DNA of 17,429 nt from an uncultured Blautia sp. (GTDB taxonomy: Bacteria; Bacillota; Clostridia; Lachnospirales; Lachnospiraceae): positions 1 to 17,429 of the forward strand of contig URWL01000002.1 of assembly GCA_900551465.1 (NCBI GenBank), given 5' to 3'. A model generated the notes under the pieces. It was not told the origin of the DNA and made no database searches. It saw nothing but the letters and a program-made list of their open reading frames with translations. The position numbers were made by a program, and so were the translations under genes. This document shows, in pieces, positions 9,209 to 16,645 of this stretch; the first letter of the stretch is position 1; each line of letters starts with the position of its first letter.

Positions 9209-10603
9209 ATGGAAAAAACAATGGAAAAAATCGTGGCTCTGGCAAAAGCAAGAGGCTTTGTGTATCCGGGCTCTGAAATCTACGGCGGTCTTGCAAACAC
9301 CTGGGATTACGGAAATCTTGGTGTAGAGCTGAAAAATAACGTAAAACGTGCATGGTGGCAGAAATTTATTCAGGAATCTCCGTATAATGTAGGTGTGGAC
9401 TGTGCGATTCTTATGAATCCTCAGACATGGGTAGCATCCGGACATCTGGGTGGATTTTCTGATCCTCTGATGGACTGTAAAGAATGTCATGAGCGTTTCC
9501 GTGCAGATAAACTGATCGAAGATTATTGTGCAGAGCATGACATTGCCATTGAAGGCAGTGTGGATTCCTGGTCTCAGGAACAGATGATGGACTTTATCAA
9601 AGAGCATCAGGTTCCATGTCCAAGCTGCGGCAAACATAACTTTACTGACATCCGTCAGTTCAATCTGATGTTCAAAACATTCCAGGGTGTAACTGAGGAT
9701 GCCAAAAATACGGTATATTTAAGACCTGAGACAGCCCAGGGTATTTTTGTAAACTTTAAAAATGTACAGAGAACTTCCCGCAAAAAGATTCCTTTTGGAA
9801 TCGGACAGATCGGTAAATCCTTCCGTAACGAGATCACACCGGGCAACTTTACTTTCCGTACCCGTGAGTTTGAACAGATGGAACTGGAATTCTTCTGTGA
9901 GCCGGATACAGACCTTGAATGGTTTGCATACTGGAAACAGTTCTGCCTTGACTGGCTTAGCTCTCTGGGACTGAAGGAAGATGAGGTGCGCTATCGTGAC
10001 CATGATCAGGAGGAACTGAGCTTCTACAGCAAAGCTACTACAGACGTGGAATTCCTGTTCCCGTTTGGATGGGGCGAGCTGTGGGGAATCGCAGACAGAA
10101 CCGATTATGACCTGACACAGCATCAGAACGTATCCGGACAGGATCTGACATATTTCGACGATGAGAAGAAAGAAAAATATATTCCATATGTAATTGAGCC
10201 GTCTCTGGGCGCTGACCGTATGGTTCTTGCTTTCCTTTGCAGCGCATATGATGAAGAAGTCCTGGATGCAGAAAAGAACGATGTACGTACCGTACTTCAT
10301 TTCCATCCGGTACTTGCACCTGTAAAGATCGGTGTCCTTCCGCTTTCCAAAAAGCTGAATGAAGGTGCTGAGAAAGTATTCCAGCAGCTTTCCAAGAAAT
10401 ACAACTGTGAGTATGACGATCGTGGAAATATCGGCAAGCGCTACAGAAGACAGGACGAGATCGGAACTCCGTTCTGCGTAACCTACGATTTCGATTCTGA
10501 AACGGATGGAGCAGTTACTGTCCGTGATCGTGATACCATGGAGCAGGTACGCGTGAAGATTGATGAGCTTGACGCTTACTTTGCAGATAAATTTACATTT
10601 TAA
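9209..10603 (+). CDS. glyS: Glycyl-tRNA synthetase, dimeric (alpha-2) class II type
   Basis: The product is 464 aa, the eukaryote/archaeal-like single-chain GlyRS (also called glyQS), not the alpha2-beta2 enzyme. It charges tRNA-Gly. Seen in the sequence: [14 protein letters not shown] at residues 14-27, two CxxC pairs (Cys90/93 and Cys137/140) flanking the insertion, [10 protein letters not shown] at 171-180, class II motif 2 [19 protein letters not shown] at about 205-223, and motif 3 with GADR at about 336-339. The anticodon-binding domain covers about residues 370-464. AGGAGAG at 9197-9203 precedes the ATG. It is a single-gene transcription unit with its own promoter and terminator. In many Clostridia glyS follows recO directly; here a cupin gene and a palindromic element lie between them. 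Confidence 0.97.
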
Positions 10604-10656: not shown

Positions 10657-10694
10657 CCGGCATGTTCTTTTGTAAGAATGTGCCGGTTTTTTTT
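10657..10694 (+). terminator. Intrinsic terminator of glyS
   Basis: A stem of about 13 bp starts CCGGCA (10657-10662) and closes TGCCGG (10681-10686). Its inner arms TTCTT/AAGAA flank a 4-nt loop, with two G-U pairs in the helix. It is followed by eight T (10687-10694). Confidence 0.95.
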
Positions 10695-12133: not shown

Positions 12134-12171
12134 AAAAAGGGGGAAAGTTTACAGATTTTCCCCCTTTTTTT
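12134..12171 (+). terminator. Terminator after pfp
   Basis: AAAAAGGGGGAAA (12134-12146) pairs with TTTCCCCCTTTTT (12157-12169), followed by further T to 12171. The stem is symmetric, with A-run and T-run, so it could work on both strands; only + strand genes are present here. Confidence 0.92.
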
Positions 12172-12275: not shown

Positions 12276-14906
12276 ATGGCAAAATGGGTTTACATGTTTA
12301 CAGAAGGTAACGCTACTATGAGAAACCTTCTGGGTGGTAAAGGTGCCAACCTTGCTGAAATGACAAGCCTGGGTCTTCCTGTACCGCAGGGCTTCACTAT
12401 CACAACAGAAGCCTGCACACAGTACTATGAAGACGGAAGACAGATCAACGATGAGATCATGGCTCAGATCATGGAAGCGATCACCAAAATGGAAGGAGTT
12501 ACCGGAAAGAAATTCGGTGACAAAGAAAATCCTCTGCTTGTTTCCGTTCGTTCTGGTGCAAGAGCATCCATGCCTGGTATGATGGATACAATCCTCAACC
12601 TTGGTCTTAATGAAGAAGTTGTTCACACATTAGCTGAGAAATCCAACAACCCACGTTGGGCTTGGGACTGCTACAGAAGATTCATCCAGATGTACTCTGA
12701 CGTAGTTATGGAAGTCGGCAAGAAATATTTCGAAGAACTGATCGACAAGATGAAAGAAGAGAAAGGTGTAACTCAGGACGTTGAGCTTACAGCTGAGGAT
12801 CTTGAGACTCTTGCTAACCAGTTCAAAGCTGAATATAAAGAAAAAATCGGCTCTGATTTCCCATCTGATCCGAAGGAGCAGTTAATGGGCGCTATCAAAG
12901 CTGTATTCCGTTCCTGGGACAACCCGAGAGCAAACGTTTATCGTCGTGACAACGATATCCCATATTCCTGGGGTACTGCTGTAAACGTACAGATGATGGC
13001 ATTCGGTAACATGGGTGATGACTGTGGTACAGGTGTTGCTTTCACACGTGACCCTGCTACAGGTGAGAACGGTCTGTTCGGTGAGTTCCTTACAAACGCT
13101 CAGGGTGAGGACGTTGTTGCCGGTGTTCGTACACCTATGCACATCTCTGAGATGGAAGAGAAATTCCCGGAAGCATTCGTAGAGTTCAAGAATGTATGCA
13201 ACACTCTTGAGAAACACTACAGAGACATGCAGGATATGGAGTTTACTGTAGAGCATGGTAAACTGTATATGCTTCAGACACGTAACGGTAAGAGAACTGC
13301 TCAGGCTGCTCTGAAGATCGCTTGTGACCTTGTTGACGAGGGAATGAGAACAGAAGAAGAAGCTGTAGCAATGATCGATCCTCGTAACCTTGATACACTG
13401 CTTCATCCGCAGTTCGATGCAAAAGCTCTGAAAGAGGCTACTCCAATGGCAAAAGCACTTGGTGCTTCTCCGGGAGCTGCTTGCGGTAAGATCGTCTTCA
13501 CAGCAGATGACGCTGTAGAGTGGGCTGCAAGAGGTGAGAAAGTTGTTCTTGTTCGTCTTGAAACATCCCCAGAAGACATCACAGGTATGAAGTCTGCTCA
13601 GGGTATCCTGACAGTTCGTGGTGGTATGACATCTCACGCAGCAGTAGTTGCTCGTGGTATGGGTACCTGCTGTGTATCCGGATGCGGCGAGATCGCTATG
13701 GATGAGGAAAATAAGAAATTTACACTTGCTGGCAAAGAGTTCCATGAGGGAGACAGCATTTCTCTTGACGGATCTACCGGTAACATCTATGACGGAATCA
13801 TTCCGACTGTAGACGCTACAATCGCTGGTGAGTTCGGAAGAATCATGGGATGGGCTGACAAATACAGAACACTCAAGGTTCGTACAAACGCTGATACTCC
13901 GGCTGACGCTAAAAAAGCTCGTGAGCTTGGTGCAGAAGGTATCGGTCTTTGCCGTACAGAGCATATGTTCTTCGAAGGCGACAGAATCGATGCATTCCGT
14001 GAGATGATCTGCTCTGAGACAGTAGAAGAGAGAGAAGCAGCTCTTGAGAAGATTCTTCCGGAGCAGCAGGGAGACTTCGAGAAGCTGTATGAAGCTCTGG
14101 AAGGAAACCCGGTTACTATCCGTTTCCTGGATCCGCCTCTTCATGAGTTCGTTCCGACTACAGAAGAAGATATCAAGAAACTTGCAGATGCTCAGGGCAA
14201 AACTGTTGAGCAGATCAAGACTATCATTGATTCTCTCCATGAGTTCAACCCGATGATGGGTCACCGTGGATGCCGTCTTGCAGTTACCTATCCGGAAATT
14301 GCAAAAATGCAGACAAAAGCAGTTATCCGTGCAGCTATCAATGTAAAGAAAGCACACGCTGACTGGAACGTATGCCCAGAGATCATGATTCCGCTTGTTG
14401 GAGATATCAAAGAGCTTAAATACGTTAAGAAATTTGTTGTTGAGACAGCTGATGCTGAGATCGCAGCAGCAGGCGTTGATCTGAAATATGAAGTTGGTAC
14501 CATGATCGAGATCCCGAGAGCAGCTCTTACTGCAGACGAGATCGCAAAAGAGGCAGACTTCTTCTGCTTCGGTACAAACGACCTTACTCAGATGACTTAC
14601 GGCTTCTCCCGTGACGATGCTGGTAAATTCCTTGACGCTTACTATGACGCTAAGATCTTCGAGAACGATCCATTTGCAAAACTGGATCAGATCGGTGTTG
14701 GCAAGCTTATGGAAATGTCCATCAAACTTGGAAAACCGGTTAACCCGAACCTTCATGTAGGTATCTGTGGTGAGCACGGCGGAGATCCTTCTTCCGTAGA
14801 GTTCTGCCATAAGATTGGCCTTAACTATGTATCCTGCTCACCGTTCCGTGTACCGATCGCTCGTCTGGCAGCAGCTCAGGCAGCTATCGCTGAGAAGAAC
14901 GCGTAA
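12276..14906 (+). CDS. ppdK: Pyruvate, phosphate dikinase
   Basis: The product is 876 aa, matching the well-studied clostridial enzyme (about 874 aa). It interconverts pyruvate + ATP + Pi with PEP + AMP + PPi. Seen in the sequence: the N-terminal ATP-grasp opening GGKGANLAEMTSLGLPVPQG at about 20-40, and the phosphohistidine loop GGMTSHAAVVARGMG with His454. The PEP/pyruvate barrel has GLCRTEHMFF, GTNDLTQMTYGFSRDD, and Cys831 in HVGICGEHGGDPSS, equivalent to the catalytic general acid Cys831. Codon use shifts strongly here to GGT, CGT, GCT, CTT and similar codons compared with flanking genes, suggesting very high expression. Its own promoter lies at 12182-12210. No PPDK regulatory protein gene (ppdR) lies in the window. 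The gene upstream is pfp, which can consume PPi made by PPDK in the gluconeogenic direction or supply PPi in the reverse sense. Confidence 0.98.
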   Translation: MAKWVYMFTEGNATMRNLLGGKGANLAEMTSLGLPVPQGFTITTEACTQYYEDGRQINDEIMAQIMEAITKMEGVTGKKFGDKENPLLVSVRSGARASMPGMMDTILNLGLNEEVVHTLAEKSNNPRWAWDCYRRFIQMYSDVVMEVGKKYFEELIDKMKEEKGVTQDVELTAEDLETLANQFKAEYKEKIGSDFPSDPKEQLMGAIKAVFRSWDNPRANVYRRDNDIPYSWGTAVNVQMMAFGNMGDDCGTGVAFTRDPATGENGLFGEFLTNAQGEDVVAGVRTPMHISEMEEKFPEAFVEFKNVCNTLEKHYRDMQDMEFTVEHGKLYMLQTRNGKRTAQAALKIACDLVDEGMRTEEEAVAMIDPRNLDTLLHPQFDAKALKEATPMAKALGASPGAACGKIVFTADDAVEWAARGEKVVLVRLETSPEDITGMKSAQGILTVRGGMTSHAAVVARGMGTCCVSGCGEIAMDEENKKFTLAGKEFHEGDSISLDGSTGNIYDGIIPTVDATIAGEFGRIMGWADKYRTLKVRTNADTPADAKKARELGAEGIGLCRTEHMFFEGDRIDAFREMICSETVEEREAALEKILPEQQGDFEKLYEALEGNPVTIRFLDPPLHEFVPTTEEDIKKLADAQGKTVEQIKTIIDSLHEFNPMMGHRGCRLAVTYPEIAKMQTKAVIRAAINVKKAHADWNVCPEIMIPLVGDIKELKYVKKFVVETADAEIAAAGVDLKYEVGTMIEIPRAALTADEIAKEADFFCFGTNDLTQMTYGFSRDDAGKFLDAYYDAKIFENDPFAKLDQIGVGKLMEMSIKLGKPVNPNLHVGICGEHGGDPSSVEFCHKIGLNYVSCSPFRVPIARLAAAQAAIAEKNA

Positions 14907-15051: not shown

Positions 15052-15163
15052 GTGTCCAAACGAAGTAATAAACCGCTGTCAAATCAGGCAGTATAATATA
15101 AAGACCTTGATCTTGCAGAGATTAATCCTTTTTGAGAAGGAGTCTTTGCAGATCAAGGTCTTT
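15052..15163 (+). ncRNA. Candidate structured RNA, copy 1 of a duplicated unknown family
   Basis: Layout: an unpaired 5' segment beginning GTGTCCAAACGAAG, a small hairpin GCTGTC (15075-15080) / GGCAGT (15087-15092), an AT linker, and a long stem of 13 perfect pairs between 15100-15112 and 15151-15163. TGCA/TGCA and TCCTT/AAGGA (15126-15130/15137-15141) pair further inside. Only TTTC follows the long stem, so termination would be weak or conditional. Positions 15052-15118 align without gaps to 16004-16070, with 12 differences in 67. Every difference inside a helix keeps pairing. No promoter is obvious just upstream. The next gene's ribosome-binding site begins 26 nt after the stem, so this could be a leader/attenuator of that gene. 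Confidence 0.6.
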
Positions 15164-15202
15164 CATATACAAAAAAACTACATTTGTCAGGAGAAATAGA
15201 CT

Positions 15203-15481
15203 ATGATGTATCCATACATGACACTGGCAGATGAAACAGAAATTGTACATTCCCAGATTATTGAGGAAAATGGTGTAAAAAAGGTTATTGTAAATTTTGA
15301 AAGACCTGTCGAAAAAGGATTTAATTCTGCTAGATGCGAACTGCCAGATTATAAATGGACAGTAAACGAAGGGTACTCAGATGAAGAAATAACTTTTTTC
15401 GAGGAATTTCTGCGTAGTAATGCACATTTGCTTTATAAATACGCAGAGGTTGGAGGGATTCAAATTGGCGGCAGTAGGTGA
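15203..15481 (+). CDS. Small hypothetical protein, 92 aa, function unknown
   Basis: AGGAGA at 15189-15194 lies 8 nt before the ATG at 15203 (a second ATG follows at once at 15206). The protein opens MMYPYMTLADETEIVHSQ, has a central VNFERPVEKGFNSARCELP, then an acidic helix-like segment (SDEEITFFEEFLRSNAHLLY), and ends GGIQIGGSR. It has no signal peptide, membrane segment or metal motif, and one cysteine. I recall similar short proteins recurring in Lachnospiraceae but cannot name a family or role. The gene stands alone between two related hairpins (15100-15163 and 15524-15589). Only 39 nt separate the upstream hairpin from the start, with no promoter there, so transcription must come through that hairpin. 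A small mobile-cassette or toxin-antitoxin-type protein is possible, but nothing in the sequence shows it. Confidence 0.75.
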   Translation: MMYPYMTLADETEIVHSQIIEENGVKKVIVNFERPVEKGFNSARCELPDYKWTVNEGYSDEEITFFEEFLRSNAHLLYKYAEVGGIQIGGSR

Positions 15482-15523
15482 CATATCTTTGTAGCCCATA
15501 GATGCTTTGGAATGTAGAAAATA

Positions 15524-15589
15524 AAAAGACCTTGATTTTATAGAGATGATATATTTCGGTATACATCTCTGTGAATCAGGGTCTTTTTT
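15524..15589 (+). terminator. Long hairpin terminator after the 92-aa gene, related to the RNA copies
   Basis: One nearly continuous stem: AAAAGACCTTGATT (15524-15537) pairs with AATCAGGGTCTTTT (15574-15587) with one G-U. AGAGATG then pairs with CATCTCT. The TATAT/GTATA top closes a TTCG tetraloop. The 3' arm runs into six T (15584-15589). The 5' arm at 15525-15549 differs from 15100-15124 in copy 1 at only 4 of 25 positions, so the two are probably related. Confidence 0.88.
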
Positions 15590-15972
15590 GTGATTTATAG
15601 ACAAAATGGTTTTGGTGGCAGCAGGTATCAGTGTAATTTTAGAAGAAATAGCAAAACTTTAGCGAACTAAAGTGAAAATGAAGATTTCTCTTTACAAATT
15701 CCCTTGTTTTCTAGGGGTTTTGTAAGGTAAAAATACCAATGAAATCCACCTTTCATTGGCAATATACTAGGTGTGAATGACCTTCATGTAACTACAAACA
15801 TAACTACAAACGAAGCAGTTATAATAGAAAATAGCACAAATGTGGTAAATAGTAAATAATATTAAATATTGTAACAAGGTCTTTGCTTATTGGTTATAAA
15901 TTGAGACACAAAACCACTTTCGTCGGGTGAAGAGGAGGATATAAACTTTTGTCCTCTAAAGGATGAAGAGGG

Positions 15973-16002
15973 TTGCCCTTTGACAATAGTAAATTATATA
16001 AT
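15973..16002 (+). promoter_or_regulatory. Possible promoter for the second structured RNA copy
   Basis: TTGCCC (15973-15978), an 18-bp spacer, then perfect TATAAT (15997-16002). The start would fall at about 16009, just inside the conserved sequence that begins at 16004. A better -35 match, TTGACA at 15980-15985, is only 11 bp from the -10 and so is probably not used. Confidence 0.4.
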
Positions 16003-16003
16003 T

Positions 16004-16116
16004 GTGTCCAAACGAAGCAATAAACCGCTGTTAAATCCAACAGCATAAAATAAGTCCCCTGATATTGCAGGAAACCGTATCCGTTGGAAAGGTGCCTGGA
16101 TATCAGGGGACTTTTT
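16004..16116 (+). ncRNA. Candidate structured RNA, copy 2 of a duplicated unknown family
   Basis: It has the same layout as copy 1: the 5' segment GTGTCCAAACGAAG, a hairpin GCTGTT (16027-16032) / AACAGC (16039-16044), an AT linker, and a 14-bp perfect stem between 16052-16065 and 16100-16113 ending in TTTTT. CAGG/CCTG (16068-16071/16095-16098) pairs inside. Here the stem is followed by a proper T-run, and a TATAAT box lies immediately upstream. It therefore looks like a free-standing small RNA of about 105-110 nt with its own terminator. It is not part of the DUF134 transcript, whose promoter begins at 16214. I cannot match it to a known riboswitch or small-RNA family. Confidence 0.6.
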
Positions 16117-16198
16117 GTGTTGCTCCTGATAAAAGGTTTTCTTATAAACATGATTTTACGAATATACTTATAGGTTTTATAAGAAAGTATTATAAACA

Positions 16199-16279: not shown

Positions 16280-16645
16280 ATGGCAAGACCACAAAAATGC
16301 AGATGCATCTGTTCGAAACCTAAGGTTACAGAGTTTATCCCTGAGGGGTGCTCCAGAGAACATTGTGTGAATCTTACTTACGATGAATATGAAACAGTAC
16401 GTCTCCTGGATTTTGTATGTCTGACCCAGGAACAGTGTGCCAGAAAGATGGATATTTCCCGGCCTACAGTGACTCGGATCTATAATGGCGCACGGCAGAA
16501 AATTGCAGATGCACTTGTAAACGGACGGGGCATAACCATCAGCGGAGGTGATGTGGTGGTGTGTGAAGAAATGCGCCCGGAATGTGTAAATGAAAAATAT
16601 TGCTGTCATAAACAGCAGGAAAACCATCAGGCAAAAGGAGAATAA
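16280..16645 (+). CDS. DUF134 family helix-turn-helix DNA-binding protein, cysteine-rich
   Basis: The product is 121 aa. It opens MARPQKCRCICSKP, close to the family's M.RP.KCR start. It then has LTYDEYETVRLLDF at about 32-45 and a sigma-70 region 4-like helix-turn-helix at about 48-80 (LTQEQCARKMDISRPTVTRI, then YNGARQKIADAL), followed by GGD and a cysteine-bearing tail. DUF134 proteins are thought to be transcriptional regulators, and their ligands are mostly unknown. Eleven cysteines (7, 9, 11, 24, 29, 47, 53, 95, 102, 108, 109) make metal, Fe-S or thiol sensing an obvious inference. The flavoprotein gene starts 2 nt after the stop, with its ribosome-binding site inside this gene, so the two are one operon. 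Confidence 0.9.
   Translation: MARPQKCRCICSKPKVTEFIPEGCSREHCVNLTYDEYETVRLLDFVCLTQEQCARKMDISRPTVTRIYNGARQKIADALVNGRGITISGGDVVVCEEMRPECVNEKYCCHKQQENHQAKGE

Follow-up and report, generated by a model that had tools for sequence, protein, structure and literature searches.

The window, i.e., the whole stretch of 17,429 nucleotides from an uncultured Blautia sp. (contig URWL01000002.1), contains near its end an intergenic stretch. On one side lies an ORF ending at 14906, which we take to be ppdK from a reading of the ORF, and on the other a DUF134 gene (16280-16645) followed by a CoA-disulfide-reductase-like gene. The host RecO matches its closest sequences (source lgn) at 98% and those of named Blautia at 78-80%. 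The features of this stretch are as follows.

15052..15074, + strand: 5' segment of copy 1, 23 nt, 22 of them equal to copy 2; unpaired in the fold of 15052-15099
15075..15092, + strand: small hairpin of copy 1, 6 bp with a 6-nt loop, in both the MFE and the centroid fold; two G-U pairs on the + strand
15100..15163, + strand: long hairpin of copy 1 (inverted repeat I4, fold), 14-bp lower stem, terminator-like with a weak U-tract
15203..15481, + strand: 92-aa ORF between the copies, with 908 relatives at E ≤ 0.001
15523..15588, + strand: third long hairpin, built like the other two (inverted repeat I5), lacking the 5' segment, downstream of the 92-aa ORF
15807..15817, + strand: third CAAACGAAGCA, an exact match to only part of the 5' segment
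15973..16002, + strand: promoter-like TTGCCC-18-TATAAT, 10 of 12 consensus letters; its start would fall near the beginning of copy 2
16004..16026, + strand: 5' segment of copy 2, from the alignment; unpaired in the centroid of 16004-16051
16027..16044, + strand: small hairpin of copy 2, 6 bp, all six pairs Watson-Crick in the fold
16049..16116, + strand: long hairpin of copy 2 ending in a T-run, a probable intrinsic terminator (inverted repeat I3, fold, terminator-like site at 16095-16107)

On realignment, positions 15052-15118 and 16004-16070 were identical at 55 of 67 bases with no gap, as the first-pass annotation had reported. Aligned locally without gaps, the two intergenic stretches scored 43 at best, compared to a mean of 11.4 in 100 dinucleotide shuffles, none of which exceeded 16. 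The edge of the identity is sharp on the left at 15052/16004, with 1 of 10 bases equal in the 10-nt bin before it and 10 of 10 in the bin after it. The 12 differences are distributed over the 5' segment (one, as had been claimed for its first 23 nt), the small hairpin (five), the spacer (one) and the long stem (five). All five long-stem pairs named earlier are double changes that retain Watson-Crick pairing (A-T/G-C, G-C/T-A, A-T/C-G, T-A/C-G and C-G/A-T). Pairing is also kept in the small hairpin, but its differences number more than the three given earlier: the changes affect one base of the loop and four bases of the stem, the latter spread over three pairs. Likewise, the statement that the loops differ completely applies to the inner part of the long stem but not to the loop of the small hairpin (AAATCA/AAATCC), which is equal at five of six positions. 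The 12 differences had no codon-position bias in any of the six frames, so there is no sign of coding on either strand, and an antisense-ORF profile used as a probe for relatives yielded one candidate and none at E ≤ 10. By these two analyses the element is intergenic and non-coding, as a bacterial small RNA gene should be.

The predicted folds of copy 1 and copy 2 have MFEs of -45.4 and -46.1 kcal/mol, with z-scores of -7.1 and -6.6, and none of 200 shuffles of each was as good. The predicted folding of the 48-nt 5' part alone beats shuffles only mildly (z -1.8 for copy 1, matched by 12 of 200 shuffles; z -2.7 for copy 2, matched by 5 of 200). The 5' segment had been described as unpaired, which holds for copy 1, save one possible 3-bp helix, but not for copy 2, where part of it pairs with bases just upstream in the MFE and centroid folds of 16000-16118. 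The long stem of copy 1 folds with -36.9 kcal/mol on the + strand vs -30.2 on the - strand (3 and 0 G-U pairs, respectively), that of copy 2 with -35.8 vs -31.0 kcal/mol (1 and 0) and the third long stem with -34.0 vs -24.3 kcal/mol (4 and 0). That the + strand folds better in all three long stems points to an RNA transcribed from it. The small hairpin of copy 1 also favours the + strand (-7.1 vs -4.9), while that of copy 2 slightly favours the - strand (-7.1 on + vs -8.1 on -). Thus, the fold z-scores and the three long stems support the proposed selection on RNA structure for a + strand RNA. Its derivation from compensatory changes fares less well, as the long-stem changes are expected of any conserved intrinsic terminator and the case of the small hairpin is borderline.

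The simplest view of the long stem is that of an intrinsic terminator. Given that the stem of a terminator must stay intact, the five double changes tell us only that the hairpin has persisted. When four substitutions were placed at random in the 12 paired bases of the small hairpin, its six pairs all remained standard in 1.6% of simulated trials with uniform substitutions and in 4.4-6.1% when two-thirds were transitions. The substitution load was 1 of 23 in the 5' segment vs 11 of 44 in the rest (Fisher p = 0.046), so that the slower change of what had been called a fixed recognition segment is borderline and based on two sequences. Compensation in the small hairpin and slower change in the 5' segment, both read from one pair of sequences, are therefore suggestive, not strong. 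The 5' segments of the two copies differ at a single base (T/C), at the N of an AGY-AAT-AAA run, which would fit the A-R-N motif of Hfq as reported for E. coli (PMC4104026). As for targets, none of the 14 gene starts in the window matched the 5' segment better than shuffled segments (lowest p 0.155).

The long hairpin of copy 2 was flagged as terminator-like by the scan and its T-run closes the unit, while the U-tract of copy 1 is poor (TCTTTCATAT) and copy 1 was not flagged as a + strand terminator. A GC-containing stem followed by a T-run, as in ordinary intrinsic terminators, is found at copy 2 and at the third stem. All three long hairpins, however, are longer (25-30 bp) than the other terminator-like hairpins of the window (e.g., 10657-10686 and 12134-12169), and two of the three, unlike ordinary intrinsic terminators, have the conserved segment and a small hairpin ahead of them. 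The arms are separated by 34-36 nt in each of the three, which lie within about 1 kb. The third stem is related in sequence to that of copy 1 (score 20, reached by 0 of 500 shuffles); the other comparisons were weaker, with 3 of 500 shuffles scoring as high for S2-S3 and 2 of 500 for S1-S2. The shared arm spacing and this relatedness favour the main rival to a pair of small RNA genes, i.e., a structured hairpin repeat that came from mobile genes. In this explanation, which we regard as possible but doubtful, the repeat is dispersed or locally duplicated, REP/MITE-like or a terminator-bearing remnant of a mobile gene, and its structure is kept for termination, with no role in trans. It is also favoured by the third 11-mer at 15807. 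Against it stand the slower change of the 5' segment and the preserved pairs (p 0.016-0.06) of a small hairpin that a terminator would not need. It should be noted that CAAACGAAGYA has three exact matches in the window, two of which are the copies, where 0.03 would be expected.

A tandem TAACTACAAAC repeat (window 15789-15817) leads into the third CAAACGAAGCA and then a TATAAT, and may be a site for a recombinase or a regulator; its 22-mer had no exact match in viral_contigs.

The 92-aa ORF, judged by its relatives, is a member of a widespread, unnamed family. In five viral loci (L018-L022), a relative of this ORF is followed by a second gene, as judged by eye from the ORF list (L018) or from 200-nt flanks (L019-L022); in L021, the frame of the second gene seems to stop early. 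We take the second gene to be DUF4160-like from known features of the family, one 147-aa relative with PF13711 and a plasmid match that is named DUF4160. In the ORF lists of the window, no such partner is seen after the 92-aa ORF, and this accessory gene, which by eye seems to be without its usual partner, is a further point for a repeat derived from mobile genes. The C-terminus of the 92-aa ORF in the window reads GGSR, while the last residue is A in 11 of the 12 relatives aligned with it; the end of P0001, a relative with 97% identity, is like that of the ORF in the window.

Just upstream of the pair in L018, five CRISPR-like direct repeats are found at 9645-9944, spaced 62-66 start to start, and one weaker copy (60%) lies downstream at 10556-10595, at the start of an ORF that we take, from a reading of its sequence, to be integrase-like. 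In L018, 47 nt of the second gene also recur upstream (9944-9990 and 10305-10351).

The long stem of copy 1 ends at 15163, 40 nt ahead of the 92-aa ORF (15203), and would be a plausible leader for it. The element could then be a cis-acting attenuator, in which the 5' part senses a signal and sets whether the long stem halts transcription before the downstream gene. We consider this unlikely. The end of copy 2 is 164 nt from the DUF134 gene, with another promoter-like site in between, and the genes after the two copies differ (the 92-aa ORF and the DUF134 gene, respectively), so that no fixed downstream gene family accompanies the element. Nor do the copies share an antiterminator; without the 3' arm they refold differently. 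In the five viral loci with relatives of the 92-aa ORF, model R1, with which the copies in the window score 77-78 bits, reached at best 20.3 bits, in L019 (E 0.13) and more than 6 kb away from that relative; L022 gave 12.7 bits and the other three nothing. Between copy 2 and the DUF134 gene, at 16138-16186, we also noticed an 11-bp inverted repeat (TTTCTTATAAA/TTTATAAGAAA), which from its sequence is possibly an operator.

The long stem of copy 1 begins 194 nt past the stop of ppdK, the GC-rich hairpin just past ppdK is not followed by a T-run and the scan lists no promoter-like site just before copy 1, at the place matching that of copy 2. These observations would suit a ppdK mRNA that finishes with copy 1, which may then be processed to a small RNA, and a transcript from further upstream that finishes with copy 2. 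This origin as 3' UTRs is in our view distinctly unlikely: the ORF list of the window has no + strand ORF of at least 70 aa between the 92-aa ORF and copy 2, the 92-aa transcript would already have stopped at the third stem and a promoter-like site of its own precedes copy 2. That site is itself weak, given that the region has seven promoter-like sites compared to a mean of 5.9 in shuffles.

In Rfam 15, no family reached its gathering threshold over the element, bearing out the first-pass view that it is no known riboswitch or sRNA. The best Rfam E-values were 0.25 for SNORA4 (- strand of copy 1) and 0.14 for MIR1513 (third stem), both of which are eukaryotic models, and the best bacterial sRNA model over copy 1, SSRC34_1, reached 18.5 bits vs a cut-off of 64. 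Four other kinds of RNA were set aside by eye for lack of their known features, alongside the Rfam search: retron RNA (complementary flanking arms missing), the antitoxin of type III toxin-antitoxin systems (tandem repeats missing), ANTAR-bound RNA (loop not A1-G4) and CsrA-binding RNA (GGA loop missing).

The exact 18-letter core had 13 matches in genome_contigs (84,980 species), none of them titled Lachnospiraceae, where about 15 are expected by chance (257 billion bases, two strands; hand calculation); this chance-level count is also in keeping with a hairpin repeat. All 13 scored at most 24.6 bits with model R1, and nothing outside the window exceeded that value when R1 was run on 67 loci, for part of which only matches at E ≤ 1 were considered. 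Six patterns of the element run against viral_contigs found no relative, two of them having no match at all. BLAST of the two copies against phages and plasmids gave no match at E ≤ 1, and at E ≤ 10 only short ones, at E 4 in plasmids and at E 1-5 among the 20 of 26 phage records listed. In 100 genomes of one phylum, model R1 had a single match (E 0.096), which we attribute to chance as the alignment loses the hairpin and lies, by eye, inside a reading frame; in 61 genomes of another phylum it had none. As neither phylum was shown to hold Lachnospiraceae, both genome searches say little. Overall, these searches returned no further homologue, the outcome that the first-pass annotation had named as speaking against its reading, with Lachnospiraceae genomes covered by only the one exact 18-letter pattern.

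The explanation that we favour, with close to even chances of being correct, is that the two copies are paralogous, lineage-restricted small RNA genes on the + strand, each consisting of the 5' segment, the small hairpin and the terminator, and most likely acting in trans. The anatomy, with a terminator-like long stem, non-coding sequence and + strand orientation, agrees with that of a small RNA gene. We computed the repeat, its predicted fold and the strand on which it folds better, while duplication as the origin, transcription, the 5' end, a trans function and any chaperone are what we infer. One small RNA gene would have been duplicated and the resulting siblings would have diverged. In copy 2, transcription would start near the conserved segment from the promoter-like site and end at the T-run. 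The exposed A-rich 5' segment of about 20 nt may pair with target mRNAs or bind an RNA chaperone, and the small hairpin together with the long intrinsic-terminator hairpin would keep the RNA stable. In favour of this explanation are the sharp left edge of the identity, the fold z-scores, the better folding of the + strand in the long stems, the promoter-like site and T-run of copy 2, the lack of coding signs and the fit to the Hfq motif. Counting against it are the poor U-tract of copy 1 and the missing promoter-like site ahead of it, the slight preference of the small hairpin of copy 2 for the - strand, the partial pairing of the 5' segment in copy 2, the only mildly better folding of the 48-nt part, and the searches above, which returned neither a homologue outside the window nor a target among its 14 gene starts. 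The finding is real but modest: the two copies are probably a lineage-restricted pair of sRNA-like units and, as bacterial small RNAs, probably of an ordinary sort. That they represent a new class of small RNA in one lineage of gut Lachnospiraceae, with a fixed single-stranded 5' segment recognised by a protein or target while the hairpin and terminator evolve freely, we consider improbable.

Should the element be transcribed, a Blautia-like gut commensal would have two compact siblings among its RNAs, and divergence of such a pair everywhere but in a fixed 5' segment would reveal where its function lies. Otherwise, the element serves as a caution that compensatory changes in a terminator stem do not by themselves make a new class of RNA. 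A literature search for Blautia sRNAs brought up a single paper, on Mollicutes. The sibling sRNAs LhrC1-5 of Listeria and NgncR_162/163 of Neisseria are described as expressed regulators, in contrast to the element described here, which is known from its sequence and for which no sequence kinship with them is claimed. These known systems consist of homologous sRNA copies in one genome, and the element resembles them in occurring twice, each time as a 5' segment followed by a small hairpin and a terminator-like stem.
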